Positions 5,524-35,619 of a stretch of DNA of 36,645 nucleotides are shown here, piece after piece. How positions within the stretch are numbered: position 1 is the first letter of the stretch; every line of letters begins with the position of its first letter. The notes below the pieces were generated by a model, which worked only from the letters and a program-made list of their open reading frames with translations, did no database searches and had not been told where the DNA came from. This DNA is from SAR116 cluster bacterium AG-325-I21 (lineage in GTDB: Bacteria; Pseudomonadota; Alphaproteobacteria; Puniceispirillales; Puniceispirillaceae): the NCBI GenBank assembly GCA_003282865.1, contig QBYK01000016.1:1-36645 (forward strand). The letters run 5' to 3'. A program made the position numbers and the translations under genes.

Positions 5524-7107
5524 CTATTCTAGTGTCACATCTTTGTTTTTTGACATCGATGACACTGCACGAATAATCACAACTGCTGCCCCTATCAAGA
5601 GAAATATTGGCGCGTATGAGAATTTGTTTTGATACTCAAAACTGAAGAATAGCCAGATACCATTATCAGAAATAATCATTGATTGGCGAAAAGCCTCTTC
5701 CATGCTTGAGGTCAGAACAAATGCAATTATGAACGCAGCCGCAGAAAAATTGGTTCGGCGCATACCATAACCAATGATTCCAAATAGAATTGCGAATCCT
5801 ACATCCCATATAGACGCTCTAGAGGAGTAGCTCGCCGCCAAAGAAATCATAAAAATGAATGGATACAGATATTGAGTAGGTAAGATAGCTATTGCCCGAC
5901 CAATCAAGGGTGCTGTGAAATAACCAATTATGGCATAACACGCTATCCCAACGAGGCCAGCAGCAAAAATTCCAAAAATAAATTCGCGAGGGCTCATCAA
6001 TTGTCCGGCTACAAATAAGGGAGGTTCAGTGGCAAAAATCTGGGGGCCAACCTGCAGGCCGTTAACAAGGAACATGCCGATTAAAACTGCTGCTATTGTT
6101 GAGCCTGGTATGCCAAGGGTTAACAGAGGTATCATTGAAGGGCCCGACACCGCATTGTTAGCAGATTCGGGGGCGGCAATGCCCTCAACAACGCCTGTAC
6201 CCCATTTGTCCTTGTTTTTTGCTTTACGTTTTTCTTCCCCATAAGCTACAAAACATGCCACAGAAGATCCTAAACCCGGCATCATACCGATCAGCGATCC
6301 ATAAATTGATGATCTAAACATCAACGGAAAACATCTCTTGAACTCTGGCCAGGTGAAATAGTGAGCGGTAGGATCGTCAAGTTTTGTTTTGTCGAGATCA
6401 ATCATCTTAACTTTGGCTGCTTTTTCAGCCTGGATAATAACCTCTGAGATTACAAAAACTCCGATAAGTAAGGGCACCAACGCCATCCCAGACTCAAGTT
6501 CATCAATTCCCATTGTCATTTTAAATTGACCAGTAATAGTATCTTCACCGATAAGGGCTATAACGGCACCAAATAGGGTTGAGATAATTCCTTTAATTAT
6601 GCTGTCACTAACAACGGAGCCAATGACGACAAAAGCCATGAGGTAGATGGCAAAGTTCTCTGGCGGACCAAATTTCTTTGTGAATGCGGCGATAGCGACC
6701 GCTCCGAATATCAGAATAATTTCGCCAAAATAGTCGCCATATGCCGAGGCAACAGTTGCGGTCTTAAGTGCTTTACCGGCTCGCCCAGACTGGGTCATGG
6801 GGTATCCATCTTGCATGGTTGCTGCTGATGCAGCGGTTCCTGGAGTATTGAATAAAATAGCAGCAATCGAGCCGCCATATCGACCAGATTTACCGATGAC
6901 ATAAAGAAAAGCCAATCCTGCCAGCCCACCTATTTCATCATTGTAGGCTATCAATATGGGTAACATCATCGCTATTGCCGCCGCCGCCGTGAGGCCCGGT
7001 AAAGCGCCAAATACAATGCCAACGAAGGCTGCTAACACCACGAAATAAATGGCGTAGGGGTCACTGAAAAGGGTTGCAAACCCGCCAATAATATCAGCAA
7101 AAACCAT
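5524..7107 (-). CDS. tctA: TTT transporter large permease subunit, system 1
   Basis: TctA is the 12-helix channel subunit of tripartite tricarboxylate transporters, secondary importers driven by an ion gradient and served by a periplasmic receptor. The protein (527 residues) is full length and very hydrophobic, with the two family-typical glycine/proline loops: 'GALPGLTAAAAIAMMLPI' near 33-50 and 'GMMPGLGSSVACFVAYGEEK' near 274-293. The start ATG at 7107 has a GGGGAA ribosome site that lies across the end of tctB, whose stop is six bases upstream. Gene order tctC-tctB-tctA is standard. The substrate cannot be read from the permease. Confidence 0.95.
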   Translation of the reverse strand: MVFADIIGGFATLFSDPYAIYFVVLAAFVGIVFGALPGLTAAAAIAMMLPILIAYNDEIGGLAGLAFLYVIGKSGRYGGSIAAILFNTPGTAASAATMQDGYPMTQSGRAGKALKTATVASAYGDYFGEIILIFGAVAIAAFTKKFGPPENFAIYLMAFVVIGSVVSDSIIKGIISTLFGAVIALIGEDTITGQFKMTMGIDELESGMALVPLLIGVFVISEVIIQAEKAAKVKMIDLDKTKLDDPTAHYFTWPEFKRCFPLMFRSSIYGSLIGMMPGLGSSVACFVAYGEEKRKAKNKDKWGTGVVEGIAAPESANNAVSGPSMIPLLTLGIPGSTIAAVLIGMFLVNGLQVGPQIFATEPPLFVAGQLMSPREFIFGIFAAGLVGIACYAIIGYFTAPLIGRAIAILPTQYLYPFIFMISLAASYSSRASIWDVGFAILFGIIGYGMRRTNFSAAAFIIAFVLTSSMEEAFRQSMIISDNGIWLFFSFEYQNKFSYAPIFLLIGAAVVIIRAVSSMSKNKDVTLE

Positions 7108-7113
7108 GTGGAT

Positions 7114-7620
7114 TTATTCCCCGCTAATCAATATTGTGTATGGACGTAAGTCAACCAGCACCCCACTAGGGTCGTTTAATCTCATAATACCCATAAATAA
7201 CCATTGCATAACAAAAGCCATCACGATGGCGCCAAACATTATTTTTAGATGCTCTCTTACGCCAAAAGCATAGAGCATGGATATATAAGTTACTATAATT
7301 GCAACAAAATATCCAAGCAGCCAGAAAGTAAGGACAAATAAGGAGCCACAGCCGACCACGAGCGTTATGCGCTTCAAGTTGCTCTCTAAAAAGCCATATC
7401 CCTCCTTGAGGTTCCCTGCTTTTCCGCGAAATGCCCTAAACGCTAGCCAGAGCCCGCCAAGAACCAGAGCAACAGCGAGGGTCATAGGCATTGTCCTAGG
7501 GCCCACAGCTTCTTTCGAAACTCCAATTGTGAATGCCTGATATACAAAAAATAGACCGATTAGTGATACAACCGCACTTACACCATATTCGATATTAGTT
7601 TTGTAACTTTCATTCGCCAT
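7114..7620 (-). CDS. tctB: TTT transporter small permease subunit, system 1
   Basis: This 168-residue protein has four hydrophobic segments (roughly 14-30, 43-60, 85-120 and 128-147), the size and layout of TctB (PF07331 family). Sequence is weakly conserved in this family, so the call leans on topology and on position between the receptor and TctA genes. A GGGG run ten bases before the ATG may serve as ribosome site. The gap to tctA is six bases, which suggests coupled translation. Confidence 0.88.
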   Translation of the reverse strand: MANESYKTNIEYGVSAVVSLIGLFFVYQAFTIGVSKEAVGPRTMPMTLAVALVLGGLWLAFRAFRGKAGNLKEGYGFLESNLKRITLVVGCGSLFVLTFWLLGYFVAIIVTYISMLYAFGVREHLKIMFGAIVMAFVMQWLFMGIMRLNDPSGVLVDLRPYTILISGE

Positions 7621-7670
7621 TTAAACCCCGGCTATCAGTTTCAAATTCTTGAAAAGTGGGCACTTTGAAT

Positions 7671-7711
7671 AAAAAAAGGGACAAGTTTCTCTAGTTCACC
7701 TGTCCCTTTTT
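7671..7711 (-). terminator. Stem-loop with U-tract between tctC and tctB, system 1
   Basis: An 11-base perfect stem (7673-7683 paired with 7701-7711, half-site AAAAAGGGACA) has a 17-base loop. In the direction of the operon it ends in seven U. It sits 18 bases after the tctC stop and before tctB. A leaky terminator or 3'-end stabiliser here would make the receptor more abundant than the permease, a common arrangement for binding-protein operons. Confidence 0.7.
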
Positions 7712-7729
7712 GACAATTTCTATGTAGTC

Positions 7730-8704
7730 TTATTGACTTGCAAGTATTTTTGCGACAACTGGACCCATTGTTTTGTACATTACATTCTGCGCGGCTACTG
7801 CTGCTTTTGCATCAGTTTCAAATGCTGCTAGGTTGTTTTTCTTCATAAACTTTTTAAAACCTTTGATGCCTGCAATGTGCTTGATGGCAGCTCCAACTTT
7901 TGTTTTGACCTCTTCAGGCACACCCTTTGGAGCGAATAGGCAGAACAAACCTGTAAAGTCCGCTCCTTCCATACCTTGTTCCGCAAATGTTGGTAGATCT
8001 TTCATTGTTGTGTCGCGGCCGGCGCCAGCTGTGGCCAATGGACGAATTGTGTCCTCAAAGCCCGCAATGGTATTATTGCCACCGAACACTGATTCTACAG
8101 ATTGAGAAACTAGCGCGGCACGGGCTTTAGAACCGCCTTTGAACGGGACCTTTTTATGTGGAATTCCGTAAGTGTCAAAGAAAAGATGCCCAATGCCAGA
8201 GTGCATTGTTGTGGCGCCCGATGTGCCCCAAGTATGGGTCTTTCCAGAAGCTTTTGCTGCGGCGATAAACTCGGCCATATTTTTTGCTGGGTTGGAAGTA
8301 TGAACCTGCAATGAGGTAACGAGCTGCGACATGCAACCTAAATTCACCCAATCATTTCTAACACTGTAAGGTGCGTCTTTACCCTTCGCTAATTCACCTA
8401 CGATAAATGTACCGATATTTATCATGTACAGTGTATGTCCATCGGCCTTTTCCTTCAGGACTTGTTTTGCCGCTTTCTGGCCAGAGGCGCCAGGAAGGTT
8501 AACAATATAGGCAGGCTGTCCACCCATTGACTCTGCTTCGTGCATGTATGACGCAAAGCCACGTGAGGTCGTATCTGTTCCACCACCGGCAGAAAATCCA
8601 ACCATAATCTTAATAGGTTTTTCAGGATAGGCCGCAAGTGCTGCACCTGATGTCAGAGTGAGAGCTGCTGCCGCGCTCAGCACAATTGATTTACGAATGC
8701 TCAT
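7730..8704 (-). CDS. tctC: TTT periplasmic solute receptor (Bug family), system 1
   Basis: This is the periplasmic substrate-binding protein of TTT system 1. I chose ATG at 8704 rather than the in-frame ATG at 8716 because GGAGG lies seven bases before it. The product (324 residues) begins with a typical signal peptide (MSIRKS, then a hydrophobic alanine-rich stretch, cleavage probably near residue 25, 'GAALA-AYPEKP'). The mature part opens with the Bug signature 'PIKIMVGFSAGGGTD', whose glycine loop binds a substrate carboxylate, and ends with the usual 'FKKFMKKNNL' region. Bug proteins bind varied carboxylates (citrate, dicarboxylates, aromatic acids), so the ligand stays open. It is divergent from the reductase gene at 8869. 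Confidence 0.93.
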   Translation of the reverse strand: MSIRKSIVLSAAAALTLTSGAALAAYPEKPIKIMVGFSAGGGTDTTSRGFASYMHEAESMGGQPAYIVNLPGASGQKAAKQVLKEKADGHTLYMINIGTFIVGELAKGKDAPYSVRNDWVNLGCMSQLVTSLQVHTSNPAKNMAEFIAAAKASGKTHTWGTSGATTMHSGIGHLFFDTYGIPHKKVPFKGGSKARAALVSQSVESVFGGNNTIAGFEDTIRPLATAGAGRDTTMKDLPTFAEQGMEGADFTGLFCLFAPKGVPEEVKTKVGAAIKHIAGIKGFKKFMKKNNLAAFETDAKAAVAAQNVMYKTMGPVVAKILASQ

Positions 8705-8868
8705 AAATTCCTCCAAAGCTATCTTTTAAATTTAATTTTTATTTTGACACCATATTTGTGGTTAGATAACGCATTTCTGTCAATGTAATTTTTAGTTTCG
8801 ATTGAATTTTGTGCCACAAAACCAATTTTTTTTTGGAAACACGTCTCAAATTACTTTTAGGTATAGAG

Positions 8869-9921: not shown

Positions 9922-10731
9922 TCATTGAGCGTTTGGAAAAAACATTTGTTTGCCAGCAACCTTGAAGCGTGCGATGGCTTGTTGTCCATTTTTCGAGATT
10001 AGCCAATCAATAAAAGCTTTACCGCCGTTGCTGTTCACACTGGGGCAGCGAACTGGGTCAATTAGCATCACGCCATAAGGATTAAATAGGCGTTTATCAC
10101 CTTCGACCATAACCTTGAAATCAGATTTGTTGGCATGCACTTCCCAAGACGATCTATCACTCAATGTATAGGCCTCTGTGCCGACAGCCGTGTTCAAGGT
10201 TGCACCCATGCCAGATCCCGTTTCTAGGTACCAACTGCCCGAGCTGGCATCCTGATTCACGCCAGTGCGTTTCCACAAAGATCTCTCTTTGCCGTGCGTT
10301 CCTGAGTCATCACCGCGAGAGGTAAATCTAGACTCTGTAACTGCAATTTTTTTCAAGGCAGCAACAGCATCATTCATTTCGGCAATGCCGGCAGGATCGT
10401 CATTTGGGCCAACAATAATGAAATCATTATACATCACATCATAGCGCTTTTTGGAATAACCGCTGGCAACAAACTGGTCCTCAAGCTTTCGGCTATGAAC
10501 GAGTAATACATCACCATCACAATTCATTGCATTCTTGATGGCGGCGCCGGTGCCAACAGCTACGACGTATACCGTGACGCCAGTCTCCTGTTTTACCAAA
10601 GGCAAAATGTGATCATACAGGCCAGAGTTCTTTGTTGAAGTTGTCGATTGCACCAAGATAGTGTTTTCGGCAACCGCATTTCCTGTAAGGAAAGTGGTAC
10701 AAAAAATTGCAAAAATTTTATATTTTAACAC
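9922..10731 (-). CDS. tupA: Tungstate ABC transporter periplasmic binding protein
   Basis: TupA captures tungstate in the periplasm. The protein (269 residues) has a signal peptide with likely cleavage after Ala21 ('GNAVA-ENT'). The mature start shows the family hallmark 'QSTTSTKNSGLYDHILP' (29-45), whose Ser/Thr residues bind the oxyanion, and 'GTGAAIKNAMNCDGDVLLVH' near 61-80. 'SRGDDSGTH' and 'ETGSGMGATLN' further along are also family-typical. It is the last gene of tupB-tupC-tupA, 50 bases after tupC. Relatives exist that handle molybdate or vanadate, so tungstate is the most likely ligand but not certain. Confidence 0.9.
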   Translation of the reverse strand: MLKYKIFAIFCTTFLTGNAVAENTILVQSTTSTKNSGLYDHILPLVKQETGVTVYVVAVGTGAAIKNAMNCDGDVLLVHSRKLEDQFVASGYSKKRYDVMYNDFIIVGPNDDPAGIAEMNDAVAALKKIAVTESRFTSRGDDSGTHGKERSLWKRTGVNQDASSGSWYLETGSGMGATLNTAVGTEAYTLSDRSSWEVHANKSDFKVMVEGDKRLFNPYGVMLIDPVRCPSVNSNGGKAFIDWLISKNGQQAIARFKVAGKQMFFPNAQ

Positions 10732-10781
10732 TGTTATAATTCCCGCTTAACCCTCATTTCCTTTTTTTAATTCGATTTTAA

Positions 10782-11516
10782 TCAAAGAACAAGGTTGCCA
10801 GCCAGGTAAGTTTTGGCAGCTTTTGAGTCTGGATTCTTGAAAAATGAAGTCGCCGGATTGTGTTCACTTAGGCTTCCATGATTAAGGAATAGCACATCAC
10901 CTGCAAGGCGTTTAGCTTGCCCCAGATCATGGGTGACTAAAATAATTTTTGTGCCTTGCCGGCTGACCATTTGCAAATTTGTCTCTATGGTCTCAACCGA
11001 TGTGGGGTCGAGATTTGATGTGGGCTCATCGAGAAAAAGAATTGCAGGTTTTATTATCAGTGCTCTGGCAAGAGCGAGCCGCTGTTTTTCTCCACCAGAC
11101 AATAGTCTCGCAGGATGTTCGGCCAGATGGTCAAGTCGGAGTTGGGCTAGACAATCTCTCGAAGTTTGTGGATTTGACACGCCGCGTTGACGGGCCACAA
11201 ACAAAAGATTCGCCAAAACTGTGCGACGTAGAATGGTTGGCGCCTGAAAAACCATTGACTGCCGTTGTCGTATAGCCTGTGATGGTGGTTTGCCGGCAAA
11301 TCGTACTTGCCCGGAATCGGGTTTCACCAAACCATGCAGACAGCGTAAAAAAAGGCTTTTTCCAGCGCCATTTGGCCCCATAATAGCGGTTATACCATTG
11401 CCCTTAATCTGACAGGTTATGCGGTCAATCACAACGCGGTCGTTTAAAGCCAATGATAGACTGTCAACGGTAATTGGCAGCAGGCAATTTAAGGCAAGAT
11501 TGGCTATATCAGACAT
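10782..11516 (-). CDS. tupC: Tungstate ABC transporter ATP-binding protein
   Basis: This is the cytoplasmic ATPase of the tungstate importer. ATG at 11516 (244 residues) is chosen over an upstream in-frame start because it overlaps the tupB stop by eight bases (ATGTCTGA) and follows an AAGGCGG box. Walker A GPNGAGKS lies at 47-54. The Q-loop ('MVFQAPTILRRTV'), signature 'LLSGGEKQRLALARAL', Walker B 'ILFLDEPTSNLDP' and switch His ('LVTHDLGQ') are all present. There is no TOBE domain, unlike ModC of molybdate importers, which supports the Tup assignment. Confidence 0.9.
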   Translation of the reverse strand: MSDIANLALNCLLPITVDSLSLALNDRVVIDRITCQIKGNGITAIMGPNGAGKSLFLRCLHGLVKPDSGQVRFAGKPPSQAIRQRQSMVFQAPTILRRTVLANLLFVARQRGVSNPQTSRDCLAQLRLDHLAEHPARLLSGGEKQRLALARALIIKPAILFLDEPTSNLDPTSVETIETNLQMVSRQGTKIILVTHDLGQAKRLAGDVLFLNHGSLSEHNPATSFFKNPDSKAAKTYLAGNLVL

Positions 11517-12216
11517 AGGCCCGCCTTTTGGCAGACGCTTTGAGCCATTGTGCAAGAAAATTAACTGCAAGCGAGATGCTTAATAAAACAAAACCAAGAG
11601 CAAGAGCTAATTCAAGCTCACCTTTCGATGTTTCCAGAGCAATTGCTGTTGTCATTACTCGCGTTAGATGATCTATGTTTCCACCAACGATAATTACCGC
11701 CCCTACCTCAGAAACGGCCCGGCCAAAACCGGCGAGAACGACTGTCATCAGCGAATAGCGCGCGTCAACAATATAAGCGACAAGCGCAGCCAATTTTGGC
11801 ACCACAAGGCTATCAAAAAAATCTTTGTAGCCCTCATGCATATCTTCAAGCACCTGGCAGGATAGCGCTATGATGATGGGGGTAATCAGGATCATTTGCG
11901 CTATGACCATGGCTTGTGGTGTATACAGTAATCCCAGCCAACCAAATGGTCCAGAGCGTGATAAGTGCAGATAAACTAAAAGCCCGACAACAACTGGCGG
12001 CAGCCCCATTAGGGCATTAAAAATGCCAACCAGTGCATCGCGCCCATGGAACTGGCGTATTGCGAGAATGGCCCCAATTGGGAGACCAATCGAGCAAGAT
12101 AGCGCCAACGATAAAAGGCTGACATTGATCGAAAGATAAAGTATCTCCATCAAGTCGCTGTCAGCGGTTGCGAGCAGCCCGAAGGCGGCAGCAAATGAGT
12201 CTGAATAGATCGACAT
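11509..12216 (-). CDS. tupB: Tungstate ABC transporter permease
   Basis: This inner-membrane subunit has 235 residues and five or six hydrophobic helices. The ABC-importer EAA loop is recognisable as 'GFGRAVSEVGAVIIVGGN' near 163-180, with its conserved Gly and the E-x-G-A pattern of Tup/Mod permeases. It is the first gene of the operon: AAGG lies about ten bases before the ATG, and its stop overlaps tupC. The order B-C-A, with the binding protein last, differs from the usual tupA-first layout. Confidence 0.9.
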   Translation of the reverse strand: MSIYSDSFAAAFGLLATADSDLMEILYLSINVSLLSLALSCSIGLPIGAILAIRQFHGRDALVGIFNALMGLPPVVVGLLVYLHLSRSGPFGWLGLLYTPQAMVIAQMILITPIIIALSCQVLEDMHEGYKDFFDSLVVPKLAALVAYIVDARYSLMTVVLAGFGRAVSEVGAVIIVGGNIDHLTRVMTTAIALETSKGELELALALGFVLLSISLAVNFLAQWLKASAKRRAYV

Positions 12217-14441: not shown

Positions 14442-16097
14442 CTAGCTATTCTTTTGGGTGGGCTTTTGCTTCGCACTTCGGCGCCAAACGAGATAGGCAC
14501 CAATCGTAACCGCGGCAATTGCCAGAGATGTCCGCAAAATGCCCCCCATCATGAATAAAGGTGTTCCCAATGCCAGAAGCATCATCGGGGAGTATAATTT
14601 TTCTAGCATTGATCCAGTGCCACGTTGCTTTTGATAGATTGGGAATATGATCGAAAAGAGTGCGATGATGGTGAAGAAAAGTGACCATGGTCGCGTGATG
14701 AATAACATAGGGTCAGCATCGATGGCCAATGCTCGTGCGAGATTCAATTCGGCAATATCACCTAGAACAACACCCAAAATCATGGGTGCGAGTGGGAAGC
14801 CATATTGGCGCATAAAAAAACCGAGAATACCAAAGAAAAACAAAGTCCAGATATCCTCAGCAGAATTATGTAGGGCAAATACACCAATCGTCGCAAAGGT
14901 TAAAATGCCGGTTGCCAGCACATAAGTTTTAATGCGTGTCACCAGAACAAATATACGAAGCACACCCGACTGCATGCCAATCATAATAAAATTGGCAAGA
15001 AAGAAAGCGATATAGATGGATGACGCGAGGACTGGCTCGTCACTGATAAATGTTGGGCCAGGTACAATATCATGCATCAGAAGTGCACCAAGCATGATGG
15101 CAGCAGTGATGTCGCCAGGAATGCCAAGTGCCATTAAAGGGGTTAGCGCCCCACCTTCAACAGCATTATTTGATGCTTCAGGGGCAATGATTCCACGCGG
15201 GTCGCCCTTGCCAAAATTGGAGTCATTCTTGGCGGCTTTCTTTGCTTGGTCATATGATAGAATGTTGGCAATTGAACCGCCCGCACCGGGCAGAATGCCG
15301 GTAAACATGCCAATTAAGGCGGACCTGATTACTACAAACCAGTTCTTGATCAAAATTGCAATGGCGCGTCGATGTTCGATTTTCACCCGGATTTGCTTTT
15401 GGTCACTCAGGGCTTTGCGGGCGGTTTCAGGGTTACGCAAATCAGACAGCAATTGTGAAAAGGCAAACAAACCAATCAGCACAGCGATAAAGTCAAAGCC
15501 AGTCAAAAGGTAGTCAGAGCCAAAATCAAACCGCCCAACTCCAACTGCATCATCTTCACCCACGGTTCGGATCAATAAACCAGCAGCGCCTGCAATCAAC
15601 CCCTTGATGAGATGGCTTCCAGCAAGGGATGAGGTAACCGTCAAGGCAAACATCACCAGCATGAAAAAATCCCAAGGCTGAAACTCGAGCCCTACCGCGG
15701 CAAGCTGAGGGGCAAAAAGAACCAATAGAACCGCAGAAATAATGCCACCACAAAAGGACGACCAAACTCCAATACCAAGCGCCAGGCCCGGCTCACCATT
15801 CCGGGCCATTGGAAACCCGTCAAAGGTGGTGGCAACTGATGATGGCGTTCCCGGTATGCCAGTTAAAATACCTGACATAAGGCCACCCGATAATCCGCCA
15901 ACAAGAACTGAAATCATTGTTGCAAGGCCTTGGGATGGCGGCATTGAAAAAGTGAAAGGCAGGGTCAGCACAATGGCCATGGCGATCGTGAAGCCTGGTA
16001 TTGATCCAGCCAGCAAACCAGCTCCAACACCGACAGTCATGAAAATCAAAGTGGCTGGGTCAACAATATTCAAAAAAGCGGGTACGAAAATTTCCAT
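14442..16097 (-). CDS. tctA: TTT transporter large permease subunit, system 2
   Basis: This is a second TctA, 551 residues, with about 12 membrane helices. The family loops are 'GSIPGFTIAMAIVLTLPF' near 31-48 and 'GILPGAGGSIANILSYDQAK' near 270-289, plus 'GIPGTPSSVATTFDGFPMA' in between. It differs clearly from the system 1 protein, so it is not a recent duplication. The start at 16097 lies five bases after the tctB stop. The C-terminus is longer than in system 1 and ends in a lysine-rich tail. Its 3' end almost touches the end of the PrpF pseudogene. Confidence 0.95.
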   Translation of the reverse strand: MEIFVPAFLNIVDPATLIFMTVGVGAGLLAGSIPGFTIAMAIVLTLPFTFSMPPSQGLATMISVLVGGLSGGLMSGILTGIPGTPSSVATTFDGFPMARNGEPGLALGIGVWSSFCGGIISAVLLVLFAPQLAAVGLEFQPWDFFMLVMFALTVTSSLAGSHLIKGLIAGAAGLLIRTVGEDDAVGVGRFDFGSDYLLTGFDFIAVLIGLFAFSQLLSDLRNPETARKALSDQKQIRVKIEHRRAIAILIKNWFVVIRSALIGMFTGILPGAGGSIANILSYDQAKKAAKNDSNFGKGDPRGIIAPEASNNAVEGGALTPLMALGIPGDITAAIMLGALLMHDIVPGPTFISDEPVLASSIYIAFFLANFIMIGMQSGVLRIFVLVTRIKTYVLATGILTFATIGVFALHNSAEDIWTLFFFGILGFFMRQYGFPLAPMILGVVLGDIAELNLARALAIDADPMLFITRPWSLFFTIIALFSIIFPIYQKQRGTGSMLEKLYSPMMLLALGTPLFMMGGILRTSLAIAAVTIGAYLVWRRSAKQKPTQKNS

Positions 16098-16102
16098 GAA
16101 AT

Positions 16103-16582
16103 TTAAAACCCTGTTAGGGAGCCGCGTGGTAAAAATACCTCAAGAGCGTATGTGAAAAGCAACCACATACCGCCAGAGGTGCCAATCGCAACCAGAACAT
16201 GCATAACGAAGGGACGCCAGCCGCCGAGCGCTGAGAGCAGTATAAAGCTGAAGGCAATATTGCCGATCAGCATTCCGAGAAAGGGCAGCGCTAGGAGATA
16301 GGCAGCAAAAATGATAAAAACTGAAAATACATTGCGCCAATAGGCTATAAACTCAACAAGGCTTTTGGGTGGTTCAGCTGATATGTTGGCCTTTGGCATG
16401 CGCAACGATTGGATAAAGTAAAGAACGCCTAAAACGCCCATAATGATAATAATTAAACGAGGCCACGCAGCAGGTGACAAGACGCCATAATCAGGCTCGC
16501 GTATATCAAAACTGGCAACCATTAACCCACCACTTGTCATGATGAGGCATAAAGCAACGATGCTGTCTCGGTTAAATGTCAT
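16103..16582 (-). CDS. tctB: TTT transporter small permease subunit, system 2
   Basis: This 159-residue membrane protein has four hydrophobic spans (about 8-24, 40-58, 85-117 and 124-147). The opening 'RDSIVALCLIMTSGGLMVAS' and the internal 'PRLIIIIMGVLGVLYFIQSL' fit TctB. The assignment is supported by its place between the receptor and TctA genes. Translation is probably coupled to tctA, five bases away. Confidence 0.88.
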   Translation of the reverse strand: MTFNRDSIVALCLIMTSGGLMVASFDIREPDYGVLSPAAWPRLIIIIMGVLGVLYFIQSLRMPKANISAEPPKSLVEFIAYWRNVFSVFIIFAAYLLALPFLGMLIGNIAFSFILLSALGGWRPFVMHVLVAIGTSGGMWLLFTYALEVFLPRGSLTGF

Positions 16583-16623
16583 CGGACTGAACCATCTGTC
16601 TTTTCAATGGTTTTGATCAAGTA

Positions 16624-16647
16624 GGTCGGCAAAAAGCTTTGCCGACC
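16624..16647 (-). terminator. Strong stem-loop between tctC and tctB, system 2
   Basis: GGTCGGCAAA (16624-16633) pairs perfectly with TTTGCCGACC (16638-16647) around a four-base loop. The hairpin lies 48 bases after the tctC stop and 42 before the tctB start. No U-tract follows in the operon direction, so it may act as an mRNA processing or 3'-end protection element rather than a classical terminator. Confidence 0.6.
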
Positions 16648-16694
16648 ATTCTTTGTGATAATGCCACCAGTGAGTAACTAGTTTTTTCGGCATT

Positions 16695-17675
16695 CTACTT
16701 CTTGTACATGCCAATTTCGATGGCAACAGCCTCAAATGACTCGTAAAGCTTCTTTGAGTAAGCCGTGAATTCTTCAGGGCCCTGAAAACGAAGCCCTGTG
16801 CCTTTTGCTGCCATTGCTTTTTGTAGGCTTGGGTTATCAACGGCTTGTTTAATGATGCCGGCCCACATATCAATGATTTCTTTTGGTGTGCCTCTTGGAG
16901 CCACTACGCCACGCTCGAGTGCAAAGCTCATATCGATGCCACGCTCTTTGAGTGTTGGAGTATTTGGGAGCTGGGGATCACGGTCATCATTGGCGATTGC
17001 CAGTGCCTTGATAGTTCCTGCCTCAAGATGCTTTTTGCCAGATGCAACATTGACTGCACCAAGCGTAATTGCACCGGAAAGAAGAGCATTCATTCGCTCA
17101 GCTGTACCGTCGTACGGAACAAGCTTAAGTTTGACCCCAGTAGCTTTCTGAAGCAATAACCATATAAAGTGCGACGTTGAACCAAACGTTGCACCCGCTG
17201 TTACTTGACCGGGGTTTGCCTTAGCATGTGCAATCATGTCTTCAATCGTATCAAACGGCGCATCGCCAGCGGCGCCAACAATATCCGGTGTAATCGTGAC
17301 ATTCGCCACTGCATCAAAGCCGTTGTAATGAAAATCAATACGGCCATTCAGAAAGCTAGTGATGGCCGACTGGTGAATTGCAAATAAAGTGCAACCGTCC
17401 GGCTTGGCCTTGGCTGCTTGTTTGGCACCTTTGTTGCCACCTTGACCGGGAACTGTTACAACCTTCAGGTTGTAGGGTGTGTCCATCTCACCAATCGTTT
17501 TTTCTACCAACGCATAAAGAACCTGCGTCCCGCCACCTGGTTTCCAAGGCACGATTAATTGAGCCGTATCACAGGGCAATTTTGGTACAGAGTGTGACCC
17601 TGCCTGTGCTAATGTAGATGCCATGATTACACCAGCTGCAAATGCGCCAAGAGTCGAAATTTTTGTTTTTAGCAT
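16695..17675 (-). CDS. tctC: TTT periplasmic solute receptor (Bug family), system 2
   Basis: This is the binding protein of TTT system 2, 326 residues. The signal peptide is clear (MLKTKIS, alanine-rich core, cleavage likely after 'TLAQA' near 25). The Bug substrate loop is 'AQLIVPWKPGGGTQ' near 39-52, followed by 'VTVPGQGGNKGAKQAAKAKP' near 78-97, the second carboxylate-contact region. Two cysteines (positions 35 and 95) may form a disulfide. AAGGAGT ten bases before the ATG is a strong ribosome site. Its sequence is far from the system 1 receptor, so the two transporters probably serve different acids. Confidence 0.93.
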   Translation of the reverse strand: MLKTKISTLGAFAAGVIMASTLAQAGSHSVPKLPCDTAQLIVPWKPGGGTQVLYALVEKTIGEMDTPYNLKVVTVPGQGGNKGAKQAAKAKPDGCTLFAIHQSAITSFLNGRIDFHYNGFDAVANVTITPDIVGAAGDAPFDTIEDMIAHAKANPGQVTAGATFGSTSHFIWLLLQKATGVKLKLVPYDGTAERMNALLSGAITLGAVNVASGKKHLEAGTIKALAIANDDRDPQLPNTPTLKERGIDMSFALERGVVAPRGTPKEIIDMWAGIIKQAVDNPSLQKAMAAKGTGLRFQGPEEFTAYSKKLYESFEAVAIEIGMYKK

Positions 17676-32165: not shown

Positions 32166-33047
32166 ATGTCTACTGTCTCTGTCATAATACCAACTTTTAA
32201 CCGCGAGGGTTTTATCAAGCAATGTGTTGTCTCTGTATTACAGCAGTCAAAAAAACCAGATGAAGTGATTGTTGTTGATGACGGATCAAGTGACAAAACT
32301 TGGGATGTTCTGAGGGTACTTGGTTTTTCTGACTCAAAAGACGAGAGAAACTCACTCCGTTACATTTTTCAGAGGAATAAAGGTGTAAGTGCAGCAAGAA
32401 ATCTAGGAATAAAAGCTGCAAAATATGGGTACATAGCGTTGCTGGATTCTGATGACTTATGGTTAGAAAAAAAATTGGAAAAACAGATCTCAAGTCTGGA
32501 GAGTCAGTCAACACGATACAGGTTAAGTCATACAAACGAAATATGGGTGAGAAATGGTGTTAGAGTAAATGCTGGTCTCAAGCATGAAAAAAGAGGTGGG
32601 GATATCTTTATTCAATGCCTCAAATTATGTTGTATATCGCCGAGTTCTTCATTAGTTGATCGCTCCGTTTTTGATGATTTTGGGTTCTTTGATGAAAACT
32701 TACCCGCATGTGAGGATTATGATTTTTGGCTTCGCTTTTGTGCTTTTGAGGATGTACATTTTGTAAACGAGTATTTGCTGATAAAAAATGGCGGCCACGA
32801 CCAACAGCTCTCAAAAAAGCACTGGGGTATGGATAGATTTAGAGTTACCGCACTTGAAAAACTTCTAAAAGATCGACGTCTGAGCGAGTTTAAACGCAAG
32901 GAAACAACTCAAGAATTGATATTTAGGCTCCAAGTGTTAATTGACGGTGGGCGCAAAAGAAAAAAAGACGCGTTTGTAAAAAAGTTAGAAAAGAAAAAAA
33001 CAACGTTGGAAGCAATGCTTTCACATGAAAGAAATGGTACAGTGTGA
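32166..33047 (+). CDS. Family 2 glycosyltransferase
   Basis: This is an inverting GT-A sugar transferase. ATG at 32166 (293 residues) is chosen because the canonical opening 'VSVIIPTFNREGFIKQCVVS' follows at once and GGA/GAGG lies upstream. Nucleotide contact is at 'VVDDGSSDKTW' (36-46), the metal-binding DxD at 'LLDSDDLWL' (92-100), and the acceptor/base region at 'ACEDYDFWLRF'. There are no membrane helices. The C-terminus is very lysine-rich ('GGRKRKKDAFVKKLEKKK'), perhaps for contact with membrane or nucleic acid. Its stop overlaps the next start as GTGA. Acceptor and sugar are unknown. Confidence 0.88.
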   Translation: MSTVSVIIPTFNREGFIKQCVVSVLQQSKKPDEVIVVDDGSSDKTWDVLRVLGFSDSKDERNSLRYIFQRNKGVSAARNLGIKAAKYGYIALLDSDDLWLEKKLEKQISSLESQSTRYRLSHTNEIWVRNGVRVNAGLKHEKRGGDIFIQCLKLCCISPSSSLVDRSVFDDFGFFDENLPACEDYDFWLRFCAFEDVHFVNEYLLIKNGGHDQQLSKKHWGMDRFRVTALEKLLKDRRLSEFKRKETTQELIFRLQVLIDGGRKRKKDAFVKKLEKKKTTLEAMLSHERNGTV

Positions 33048-33892
33048 ATAATACAAATCGGGAATTTAAGTTCTTTTGGGTTGTCGCTTTGCGGTCTGAG
33101 GCTAATGCACTGATAAAAAAATTTAACTTAAAGAGTTTTTCAAACCACTGTAATTTTCCGATATATATAAATCGCAAAAATGGTCACGCCCTTGTGATAT
33201 CAGGTGTTGGGTCTATCAAATCTGCTGTAGCCACGATGTATTTGAATAAGACTTTTAACCCTGGTCAGGTTGTTGCATGGATTAATATTGGAATAGCAGG
33301 CCATTTTCAAGGGCCTGTAGGAACGCTGTTCCAAGTAATAAAAGTGGTCAACAATGATAATGGCAAATCCTTCTTTCCGGGCCTAAGGTTTCCTAAGTTA
33401 GCAAAGGCCGCAGAGCTTTACACCGTAAGCTCTCCTGAGAATGAATTTACTTTGCCAGTTCTATACGACATGGAAGCTGCTGGTTTTTGTGAGATTGCGC
33501 CAAGTCTTTCTTGTAACGAACTTACTTTTGTTTTGAAAATAGTCTCAGATACATCGGAGCAGTCGCAATCATTAATAACAAAAAAAATGATTGCTGATCT
33601 TTTTAACAAGAACTCTGACATGATTGATAATTTATTGCAGGCTGTTGTTAAAATTGTTGACCGAGAGAGGGCTAGATTGGGAGATCCAATAGAAATGGAC
33701 GGGATAATGTGCTCGCTGCATTTCACAGAAACAAACCGACTTAGATTTCGAAAAATTTATAAAAAGTGGTGGTGTTTATTTCCCAACAAGTCTCTAGCCG
33801 ACAGAGCAAAAAAAGCATCATCTGCACACGACCTAATGCAAAGTATGGAACTGGACATTGCTACAGAAGCACAAACTTGGAAATTGAAATGA
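33044..33892 (+). CDS. Nucleoside phosphorylase/MTAN-superfamily protein, probable nucleosidase
   Basis: The protein (282 residues) resembles methylthioadenosine/S-adenosylhomocysteine nucleosidase. The catalytic triad of that family appears complete: Glu19 ('ALRSEANAL', as in A-M-E-E-E), Glu144 ('LYDMEAAGFCEIA') and Asp169 ('KIVSDTSEQSQS'). 'NIGIAGH' (81-87) fits the conserved N-x-G-x-A-G. After about residue 205 there is an unusual basic C-terminal extension ('RFRKIYKKWWCLFPNKSLA') absent from MTAN. The GTG start overlaps the glycosyltransferase stop, and the stop overlaps the next gene as ATGA. Such enzymes can also cleave 5'-deoxyadenosine, the by-product of radical SAM enzymes, which is of note because the next gene is one. 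Confidence 0.78.
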   Translation: MNNTNREFKFFWVVALRSEANALIKKFNLKSFSNHCNFPIYINRKNGHALVISGVGSIKSAVATMYLNKTFNPGQVVAWINIGIAGHFQGPVGTLFQVIKVVNNDNGKSFFPGLRFPKLAKAAELYTVSSPENEFTLPVLYDMEAAGFCEIAPSLSCNELTFVLKIVSDTSEQSQSLITKKMIADLFNKNSDMIDNLLQAVVKIVDRERARLGDPIEMDGIMCSLHFTETNRLRFRKIYKKWWCLFPNKSLADRAKKASSAHDLMQSMELDIATEAQTWKLK

Positions 33893-34881
33893 TCGAAACT
33901 GTGTTTGTCGAAAGTCAAATAATTGATCATCCGATCACTAAACGTGTTCTTTCATGTCTTCCAAAAGCTGATTTACTCAACATTAATCGATATCAAGAAC
34001 TGTTCAATAAAAGGCAGCAAAACTTTCGTCTCCAAAAAGAAAAGCCTGCACTGATTTTGGCTAAGAAGCACGATAACTTTGTGTTGCCTGCGCCTTCTGG
34101 TTTTGGAATGGACTCTCAAAAGAACTTCTATTTTTCACACATGTATAATTGTATTTATGATTGCCGCTATTGCTTCTTGCAAGGAATGTATTCCTCAGCC
34201 AATTATTTGTTGTTTGTCAACTTCGAAGACTTTTTTAGATCGATATCGGAAACTATCCAAAATAATGCAGGCTCATCACTAACCTTTTTTTCAGGTTATG
34301 ATTGCGACTCTCTTGCTTTTGAAAAAATTACCAGTTTTGCGCAACATACTCTGAGTTTTTTCAAGGAACATCCTGAAGTTGAGTTTGAGTTGAGAACCAA
34401 GAGTGTGAATATTGAAACATTATTGAATCTGGAACCCATCTCAAACTGCGTCGTTGCCTTTAGCTTGTCTCCTGAGAGCGTGGCTGACGTTCTTGATAAA
34501 AAAGCGCCAAGAGTAAATAAACGAATCCGTGCTATAAAGAAGCTCGCAAAATCTGGATGGCTTGTTGGTTTACGATTAGACCCGTTGATATTTTGTGAAA
34601 ATTGGAGAGGACTCTATTCTGAGCTTATAGAAGAGATTATGGCTGATTTAGAAATCACAAACCTGCACTCGGTTAGTTTTGGACCGTTAAGATATCCAAA
34701 AAAAATGTATAACACGATTGCGGCTTTGTACCCTGAGGAGAAGCTGTTTGCATTTCCAATGCAAACAAACGGGCAACTGGTTTCCTACGGACCTGAGATT
34801 GAAAATGAGATGGCAACTTACATTCAAGACGAATTAAAAAAATATCTTGGAGCGGATAGGATATTCCAATGTTTAATATGA
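33889..34881 (+). CDS. Spore photoproduct lyase-like radical SAM protein
   Basis: This 330-residue radical SAM protein carries the 4Fe-4S motif Cys88, Cys92, Cys95 in 'MYNCIYDCRYCFLQGMYSS'. Downstream 'YLLFVNFEDFF' matches 'Y-x-R-T-x-V-N' of spore photoproduct lyase (SPL), which repairs thymine photodimers in spores. By my alignment from memory, the SPL catalytic Cys (141 in B. subtilis) falls on Tyr137 in 'SGYDCDSLAFEKIT', with a Cys two residues later. 'FELRTKS' and 'FSLSPESVADVLDKKAPRV' are typical of the SPL-like branch found in non-spore-formers. The ATG is fixed by the ATGA overlap with the nucleosidase gene. Function outside spores is unproven. Confidence 0.85.
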   Translation: MIETVFVESQIIDHPITKRVLSCLPKADLLNINRYQELFNKRQQNFRLQKEKPALILAKKHDNFVLPAPSGFGMDSQKNFYFSHMYNCIYDCRYCFLQGMYSSANYLLFVNFEDFFRSISETIQNNAGSSLTFFSGYDCDSLAFEKITSFAQHTLSFFKEHPEVEFELRTKSVNIETLLNLEPISNCVVAFSLSPESVADVLDKKAPRVNKRIRAIKKLAKSGWLVGLRLDPLIFCENWRGLYSELIEEIMADLEITNLHSVSFGPLRYPKKMYNTIAALYPEEKLFAFPMQTNGQLVSYGPEIENEMATYIQDELKKYLGADRIFQCLI

Positions 34882-34905
34882 AATGGATACCAAGGAAACA
34901 TTCAA

Positions 34906-35619
34906 TTGCATAGGATTGCTGTTGTTACGGGAAGTTCAAGTGGCATTGGGAGGGCAACTGCCACTCGGCTTTTAGAAGCAGGCTTTACGGTAATTGGCTT
35001 GGCTCGACATCATAACCAATCTGGGATGAGTCATGATCGTTATCATCCTTGCACAGCGGATTTTTCTGATATTGAGGAATTAGATAAAATTGCCGCGGAT
35101 ATTTCAAAAGATCATCCAGAAATTAGTGTGTTAGTTTGTAATGCAGGCTTTGGTGATTTTAGGCATCTTGAAAATTTTTCGTATAAGCAAATCCAAGAAT
35201 TTCTAAATGTAAATTTAGTCGCCCACATTGTTCTCTGTCGCCACATGGCCAGCGGCATGAAAAAGCTTGGGCAAGGAGATATCGTCATAGTTGGTTCGGA
35301 AGCAGCTTTGATAGGCAAAAGAAAAGCAACGCTATATTCAGCGGCCAAATTCGGGATCCGTGGCTTTGCTCAATCTTTGAGAGATGAGGTGGGATCATCT
35401 GGTCTAAGAGTTTGTCTAATTAATCCTGGCATGGTCAGGAGTGCGTTTTTTAATGACCTAGATTTTGAGCCTGGTAACTCTCCAGAAAATGCTATAGAGC
35501 CAGATGATATTGCAAAAGTAATTGTTGAGACGGTTGGGACGCGGAAGGGCACCGTGATTGACGAAGTTAATTTATCGCCAGCATCAAAAGCCATTTATTT
35601 TAAAAATAAAAGATTATGA
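34906..35619 (+). CDS. Short-chain dehydrogenase/reductase
   Basis: This classical SDR has 237 residues: cofactor loop 'TGSSSGIGRA' (8-17), 'LVCNAGFGDF' (76-85), Ser131, and catalytic Tyr144 and Lys148 in 'LYSAAKFGIRGF'. Arg34 after the second strand suggests NADPH. No ATG is available; TTG at 34906 follows AAGGAA by eight bases and gives the expected family start ('HRIAVVTGSSSG'). The only upstream codons before an in-frame stop are non-start apart from ATT at 34900. The gene lies 24 bases after the radical SAM gene and closes the four-gene unit. The substrate is unknown. Confidence 0.88.
   Translation: MHRIAVVTGSSSGIGRATATRLLEAGFTVIGLARHHNQSGMSHDRYHPCTADFSDIEELDKIAADISKDHPEISVLVCNAGFGDFRHLENFSYKQIQEFLNVNLVAHIVLCRHMASGMKKLGQGDIVIVGSEAALIGKRKATLYSAAKFGIRGFAQSLRDEVGSSGLRVCLINPGMVRSAFFNDLDFEPGNSPENAIEPDDIAKVIVETVGTRKGTVIDEVNLSPASKAIYFKNKRL

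Follow-up and report, generated by a model that had tools for sequence, protein, structure and literature searches.

The stretch of DNA analysed here (36,645 nucleotides, contig QBYK01000016.1 of the SAR116 cluster bacterium AG-325-I21; below, the window) contains four same-strand genes, spanning 32166-35619, in the order family 2 glycosyltransferase (GT2), nucleosidase (NUC), radical S-adenosylmethionine (SAM) protein with the fold of spore photoproduct lyase (SPL), and short-chain dehydrogenase/reductase (SDR). Every frame is open at the coordinates given in Table 1. GT2 and NUC overlap by four bases (GTGA at 33044), as do NUC and the SPL-like gene (ATGA at 33889); 24 bases separate the stop of the radical SAM gene (34881) from the TTG start of the SDR (34906). 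A preliminary description of this unit had given the same coordinates, overlaps, gap and family assignments, and all are confirmed. As argued below, the four genes probably build or modify a small molecule using part of SAM, rather than repair sunlight-damaged DNA.

Table 1. The four genes of the unit, in positions of the window, with their Pfam matches.
Gene	Position	Strand	Product
Family 2 glycosyltransferase (GT2)	32166..33047	+	293 aa; PF00535 106.6 bits, 1.7e-30
Nucleosidase resembling 5′-methylthioadenosine/S-adenosylhomocysteine nucleosidase (MTAN) (NUC)	33044..33892	+	282 aa; PF01048 21.3 bits (cut-off 25.1), MTAN fold in model
SPL-fold radical SAM enzyme	33889..34881	+	330 aa; PF20903 88 bits, 7.6e-25
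Classical short-chain dehydrogenase/reductase (SDR)	34906..35619	+	237 aa, TTG start; PF00106 141.8 bits, 2.3e-41

The unit has a GC content of 38.7%, against 46.1% in the remainder of the window. A pattern scan found no convincing promoter or terminator, both pattern counts being below the shuffle means. Among the matches listed, the closest named relatives are SAR116 cluster genomes, whose radical SAM proteins are 97 and 92% identical to that of the window.

The SPL-like protein has the cluster motif C88-x3-C92-x2-C95, and its predicted structure (predicted local distance difference test score, pLDDT, 88.1) is that of an SPL from end to end: in a Foldseek search the best match was SPL 4rh0 (E 3.1e-19, template modelling (TM) score 0.83), SPL entries ranged from TM 0.81 to 0.85, and the next non-SPL match was at 1.2e-4. 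Its PDB sequence matches at E ≤ 0.001 are SPL entries only, and it lies well above the PF20903 cut-off (27 bits), which indicates an SPL fold and a radical SAM enzyme. It scores just 110.8 bits, however, against the cut-off of 400 for TIGR04070, the SPL equivalog. The profile alignment, in a stretch free of gaps, places Y137 opposite Cys140, the catalytic hydrogen donor of SPL, and F96 opposite the relay residue Tyr98. Across distinct sequences (109 SPL from 128 rows; for NUC below, 84 from 98 rows), the column aligned with Cys140 holds Tyr in 92, Glu in 16, Gln in one and Cys in none, and 89 of the 92 with Tyr have Phe at position 96, the remaining three having Tyr. K171 (109 of 109) and S192 (106 of 109), which have a role in SAM binding, are kept; C139 and C328 are invariant in a 32-row set.

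According to a review, the single SPL mutants C141A and Y99F (Bacillus subtilis numbering, equivalent to Cys140 and Tyr98 in Gt) formed about one 5′-deoxyadenosine per repair and did not regenerate SAM (PMC3742179). Since the Cys/Tyr relay that regenerates SAM in true SPL is absent here, the natural SPL-like enzyme probably consumes SAM. By the same alignment it is not a spore photoproduct lyase: no sequence has Cys in the Cys140 column, and Phe mostly takes the place of Tyr98. Together with the TIGR04070 score, this led us to reject SPL-type DNA repair. The preliminary description had spoken of a DNA-photolesion-type protein: the fold is indeed present, but Cys140 and, nearly always in the main family, the relay Tyr are missing, and the protein is usually accompanied by a nucleosidase, a dehydrogenase/reductase and a glycosyltransferase.

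NUC falls below the curated cut-offs of both PF01048 (Table 1) and NF004079 (29.1 bits against 169), and a PDB sequence search gave no match at E ≤ 0.01. The fold of its AlphaFold2 model (pLDDT 90.4) is that of MTAN: the best Foldseek match is MTAN 2h8g (E 7.9e-13), and by title all 50 matches listed are MTAN, methylthioadenosine (MTA) nucleosidase or futalosine hydrolase. A helical extension occupies the C-terminus (approximately residues 190-278). The catalytic-type residues E19, M143-E144 and S168-D169 are present in the window's protein, and the catalytic Glu, Met-Glu and Asp are intact in 78 of the 84 distinct NUC sequences (one is truncated; the other five are considered below). GT2 belongs to a distinct subfamily with motifs HTNEIW, CCISPSS, CEDYDFW, GGHDQQLS and WGMDRFR (by eye, from the alignment); none of the 25 NCBIfam matches listed for it is an equivalog above cut-off.

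The four genes stay together in other genomes. The order GT2-NUC-SPL-SDR is found in 19 of 20 relatives' neighbourhoods and in 56 of 80 named loci, the best 80 of at least 550 confirmed relatives, which biases the architecture counts to close relatives; 15 of the 20 neighbourhoods recur among the 80 loci, and the two counts are thus not independent. The remaining named loci are SPL-SDR (16), GT2-NUC-SPL (4), NUC-SPL-SDR (3, two of them cut by a contig end) and NUC-SPL (1). The SDR, directly downstream in 75 of the 80, is the most constant neighbour of SPL; NUC adjoins it in 64 and GT2 in 60. In the 56 complete units, the four-base overlap of NUC and SPL is preserved in 43, and the distance matrices of the four proteins, compared two at a time, show correlations of r 0.913-0.946 (no control gene). 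The single operon suggested in the preliminary description is supported. In the exception among the 20 neighbourhoods (L050, genome G143), NUC and SPL come after a gene that resembles a methyltransferase weakly, with scores under the Pfam cut-offs; this pair sits in a run with pyridoxal phosphate-dependent and rhodanese genes, with no GT2 or SDR beside SPL, in a genome that has a hopene cyclase domain. In seven SAR116-order contigs (L015, L017-L019, L021-L023; f4/g14), the sequence stops 676-704 bases past the SPL match, within the SDR, as if assembly broke at a common repeat or at the edge of a variable island.

In a set of 151 genomes, the window's own included, SPL was found in 46, NUC in 44 and GT2 (counted at E ≤ 1e-40) in 45. 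NUC is present in 44 of the 46 SPL-positive and none of the 105 SPL-negative genomes, although the genomes are kin and these are fewer than 151 independent trials. GT2 is likewise present in 44 of the 46, and in one SPL-negative genome (G101); the two with SPL and without GT2 are G085 and G143. In a phylum sample of 398 genomes including the window's, neither SPL (1e-30) nor NUC (1e-20) was found in the 397 others: the window's genome being the only one to have either, the unit is rare and patchy in the phylum. Titles of records with cassette genes include Alpha- and Gammaproteobacteria, Myxococcales, Planctomycetota, Neomarinimicrobiota and Omnitrophica (mostly metagenome-assembled genomes), and Fusobacterium.

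Two kinds of exception to the common arrangement bear on how NUC and SPL are related. In Fusobacterium vincentii, they form a single open reading frame (ORF) of 623 aa, followed by the SDR; a gut contig (L144) has NUC-SPL-SDR. Where SPL and SDR stand by themselves (16 loci), 14 record titles name Methylococcales-type methanotrophs, and the other two say just Gammaproteobacteria or proteobacterium. Of these 16 genomes, 15 encode NUC elsewhere (the exception is a 1.0 Mb assembly), and nine give a strong match to GT2 (E ≤ 6.6e-55), which in several lies no more than about 5 kb from NUC. NUC and SPL are therefore nearly obligate partners, as seen from their co-occurrence in the 151 genomes, their joint absence from the 397 others of the phylum sample, the fusion ORF, and the retention of NUC where it is unlinked. 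As to the records themselves, the F. vincentii sequence (L141, NZ_CP084075.1) is labelled 'plasmid pSB055A', which looks doubtful: it is 2.1 Mb, chromosome size, with one annotated feature. In five methanotrophs (L157, L159, L160, L162, L164) the unlinked NUC, in four of them with GT2, lies near globin, ferredoxin-reductase and Rrf2/ArsR-type regulator genes (by eye), a setting reminiscent of nitrosative-stress loci.

In a FastTree phylogeny of 46 SPL proteins, Rhodobacteraceae fall into one group with the window's genus and a second genus of SAR116 (support 0.996), and the other SAR116 families lie outside it, which suggests horizontal transfer among marine alphaproteobacteria; deeper nodes are weak (0.448, 0.5). 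Phage cargo was considered and rejected: in a viral contig collection, two of 71 pattern matches encode a relative, both just 30% identical over the matched segment and without partners, and two 'phage' records of gut origin look bacterial by eye. In two IMG/VR contigs (L139, L140), an SPL-like protein of 305 aa, in which Glu occupies the Cys140 position, is encoded near DNA-methyltransferase-like and terminase-like genes (by eye). A defence system was rejected as well, none of the four proteins matching a PADLOC model of anti-phage defence at E ≤ 0.001.

A second SPL-like subfamily is common among the Omnitrophota sampled. The Omnitrophica record L137 belongs to genome G564; of 285 genomes sampled from the phylum of that genome, 111 give an SPL-like match at 1e-20. 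Four of these count as strong members (best E 4.8e-162 to 2.1e-146), and 107 are weaker (E ≥ 6.2e-57), many of them longer proteins. Proteins of the weaker type (L188-L203, L207-L223) mostly measure about 450-460 aa and carry approximately 100 additional residues at the N-terminus. Seventeen loci, taken among the higher-scoring of the 107 genomes, were inspected. Eleven have the same GT2 subfamily directly upstream; the other six have a different PNP_UDP_1-type nucleosidase. In four of the six it sits immediately upstream; in two it lies no more than 3 kb away on the opposite strand, and an aldo/keto reductase takes the place immediately upstream. The Pfam scans covered one of the nucleosidases and one of the aldo/keto reductases, the others being assigned via BLAST clustering. 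Similar kinds of partner thus recur in Omnitrophota with a different nucleosidase and a different reductase. Several of these pairs of SPL-like gene and partner face an lpxI/lpxA/lpxC-like lipid A locus (by eye) on the opposite strand. In G564 (L224), the GT2 homologue shares a 546-aa ORF with a phosphatase of haloacid dehalogenase type (by eye), hinting at a phosphorylated intermediate.

Gene order, co-occurrence, the NUC-SPL fusion, predicted folds and active-site changes lead us to favour, tentatively, a small biosynthetic pathway with SAM as a building block, by way of adenosylation, deadenylation, reduction and glycosylation. The SPL-fold enzyme would cleave SAM and add the 5′-deoxyadenosyl radical to an unsaturated acceptor X, consuming SAM. 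NUC, to judge from its fold and catalytic residues, would then hydrolyse the N-glycosidic bond of the adenosylated product, giving adenine and X-ribose; the SDR, or the aldo/keto reductase in some Omnitrophota, could reduce the freed aldehyde to a ribitol-like polyol, to which GT2 might attach a sugar. A nucleoside-derived glycoside was among the roles proposed in the preliminary description, and comes close to this explanation; the repair or salvage of a nucleotide, also proposed there, is not supported.

Several observations tell against such a pathway. The acceptor X is hypothetical, and a dedicated nucleosidase could equally just clear 5′-deoxyadenosine. The correspondences of Y137 to Cys140 and F96 to Tyr98 come from sequence alignment, not a superposed active site; C139 lies two residues from the Cys140 column, and the three sequences that retain Tyr at position 96 are those of Fusobacterium and gut origin. 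Met-Glu and Asp are lost in five of the 84 distinct NUCs, those of one SAR116-order clade and of L049, while the ORF and its neighbours persist, with the pseudo-nucleosidase beside GT2, SPL and SDR (L047, L048, L112, L118, L126, L134, L049); adenine removal by NUC would then not always be needed. A gut contig (L145) has SDR, a 160-aa ORF and SPL, and no NUC match even at E 10. GT2 is not beside SPL in 20 of the 80 named loci (two of these cut by a contig end), seven of the 16 SPL-SDR genomes have no GT2 match at the strong level used above, and nucleosidase and GT2 occur together at none of the 17 Omnitrophota loci inspected. A rigid four-step scheme, in particular, fits poorly with the clade whose NUC is dead and with the genomes that lack GT2.

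The main rival, which we regard as somewhat less likely, would use SAM as an oxidant or hydrogen-abstracting co-substrate: the radical enzyme would rearrange, dehydrate or oxidise a sugar or another diol, the SDR would reduce the resulting ketone, NUC would destroy inhibitory 5′-deoxyadenosine, and GT2 would transfer the modified sugar or decorate the product. The AprD4/AprD3 pair of apramycin biosynthesis is a precedent for a radical SAM step followed by reduction of the resulting ketone. The constancy of the SDR as neighbour and the loci with SPL and SDR alone are as this rival would have them; relay loss likewise predicts stoichiometric 5′-deoxyadenosine; and in the window's genome, which is 79.7% complete, no PNP_UDP_1 protein was seen besides NUC. 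The need for disposal is itself documented, 5′-deoxyadenosine being an inhibitor of radical SAM enzymes that must be disposed of (PMC8102628). General clearance leaves unexplained, however, a near-obligate, dedicated nucleosidase with its own C-terminal extension, and the absence of NUC from the rest of the phylum sample. Other radical SAM enzymes are served by MTA phosphorylases or MTANs, for which such pairing is not known. Adenosylation is favoured over by-product removal because NUC is dedicated, is fused to SPL in one lineage, and is accompanied by a reductase (SDR or aldo/keto reductase) and a glycosyltransferase; these last two fit adenosylation, since they would act naturally on the ribose aldehyde left by deadenylation.

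Salvage or maturation of a modified base or nucleoside, in which NUC would free a modified purine base, this base or its nucleoside would be the substrate of the radical SAM enzyme, much as queuine is salvaged, and SDR and GT2 would finish the product, is improbable in our estimate. A nucleosidase and a radical SAM lyase are a known combination in queuosine salvage, and one solved structure (4fhf) has, according to its title, a dinucleoside photoproduct bound to the SPL fold. The cassette is not accompanied, though, by any transporter or base-exchange gene, there being no additional family common to most clustered neighbourhoods (in which not every cluster was identified), and the PDB sequence matches of the radical SAM protein, all SPL entries, do not point to salvage enzymes either. 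Repair of ultraviolet lesions in DNA or nucleotides, as the name SPL implies, has the full-length fold and the conserved Lys and Ser in its favour; the substituted Cys140 column, the usual Phe for Tyr98, the missed equivalog cut-off and an operon that also holds GT2, SDR and nucleosidase make it decidedly improbable. An accidental grouping might be entertained given the huge size of the SDR and GT2 families and the unlinked NUC (where present) of the 16 SPL-SDR genomes. It is contradicted by the shared order, overlaps and co-occurrence across many bacterial groups and by the NUC-SPL fusion, and the regular presence of SDR and NUC beside SPL in other genomes, a check proposed in the preliminary description, leaves it with negligible probability.

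Elsewhere in the window, judged by eye from the list of ORFs, are two sets of genes resembling tripartite tricarboxylate transporters (5524-8716 and 14442-17675) and a tungstate-type ATP-binding cassette transporter (9922-12216).

While the protein families are known, the gene system appears to be undescribed, as the preliminary description had suspected, and so does the way in which this branch departs from the chemistry of SPL: none of the papers listed from the open-licence literature describes this gene set. By name and Pfam match these proteins pass as spore photoproduct lyases, implying DNA repair, while the data assign another role to a large branch of the family, in which the usual companions are a nucleosidase, a reductase and a glycosyltransferase. 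Should adenosylation be correct, this would be a new bacterial route for turning SAM into a carbon skeleton, in marine SAR116, Rhodobacteraceae, methanotrophs, and oral and gut bacteria.

Of the known systems compared, SplB (4fhc/4rh0; PF20903, TIGR04070) shares the whole fold, the CxxxCxxC motif and the conserved barrel Lys and Ser positions with the SPL-like protein, which differs in lacking Cys140 and mostly Tyr98, so that no SAM-regenerating relay is expected, and in having operon partners unrelated to DNA repair. NUC has the fold and catalytic residues of MTAN, and differs in its scores below the Pfam and NCBIfam cut-offs, its extra C-terminal helices and its near-obligate SPL partner. 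In the futalosine pathway of menaquinone synthesis, radical SAM adenosylation by MqnE is followed by an MTAN-like hydrolase (MqnB). MqnE is among the distant fold matches of the SPL-like model (6xig, E 3.8e-4), and futalosine hydrolase (4bmy) among those of NUC; however, MqnE is not among the family matches of the SPL-like protein, and NUC scores 30.6 bits with the futalosine hydrolase model TIGR03664 against a cut-off of 124.7, so membership in this pathway was rejected. In arsenosugar biosynthesis the radical SAM enzyme ArsS adenosylates arsenic en route to the arsenosugar (PMC12159101). Membership was rejected here too, the SPL-like protein having no ArsS match and GT2 scoring 58 bits against the cut-off of 182 for TIGR04283, the arsenosugar glycosyltransferase model.

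A further comparison is with C35 hopanoid biosynthesis. According to PMC12583986, HpnH adds a 5′-deoxyadenosyl group to diploptene, HpnG, a putative phosphorylase, removes adenine, and HpnI glycosylates bacteriohopanetetrol (BHT); the step to BHT and the function of hpnA and hpnB are unassigned there. The genes of the window are not members: no HpnH or HpnG model is among the NCBIfam matches (E ≤ 0.1) of the SPL-like protein (two families) or NUC (five families), and GT2 scores 25.8 bits against the HpnB cut-off of 379.25. Squalene-hopene cyclase (PF13249) is absent from all 14 SAR116-order cassette genomes tested (of 45), so hopene was rejected as acceptor for these and is an unlikely one in SAR116; the domain is present in G143, of another order, and in four of four SPL-SDR genomes tested. 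The preliminary description could name no pathway with this mix of enzymes. While the four genes are not part of C35 hopanoid synthesis, enzymes of like kinds are at work there, and the order proposed here, adenosylation, deadenylation, reduction and glycosylation, would be similar, the reduction step in hopanoids being a surmise. A more specific proposal, possible but held more loosely than the general scheme, is that an SPL-fold enzyme without its relay became an adenosyltransferase and, with a fused or co-transcribed NUC, a reductase and a glycosyltransferase, builds a glycosylated ribitol-type tail from SAM on a non-hopanoid acceptor; the logic of bacteriohopanetetrol synthesis would then have been assembled a second time, and perhaps, with partly different reductases and nucleosidases in Omnitrophota, a third.

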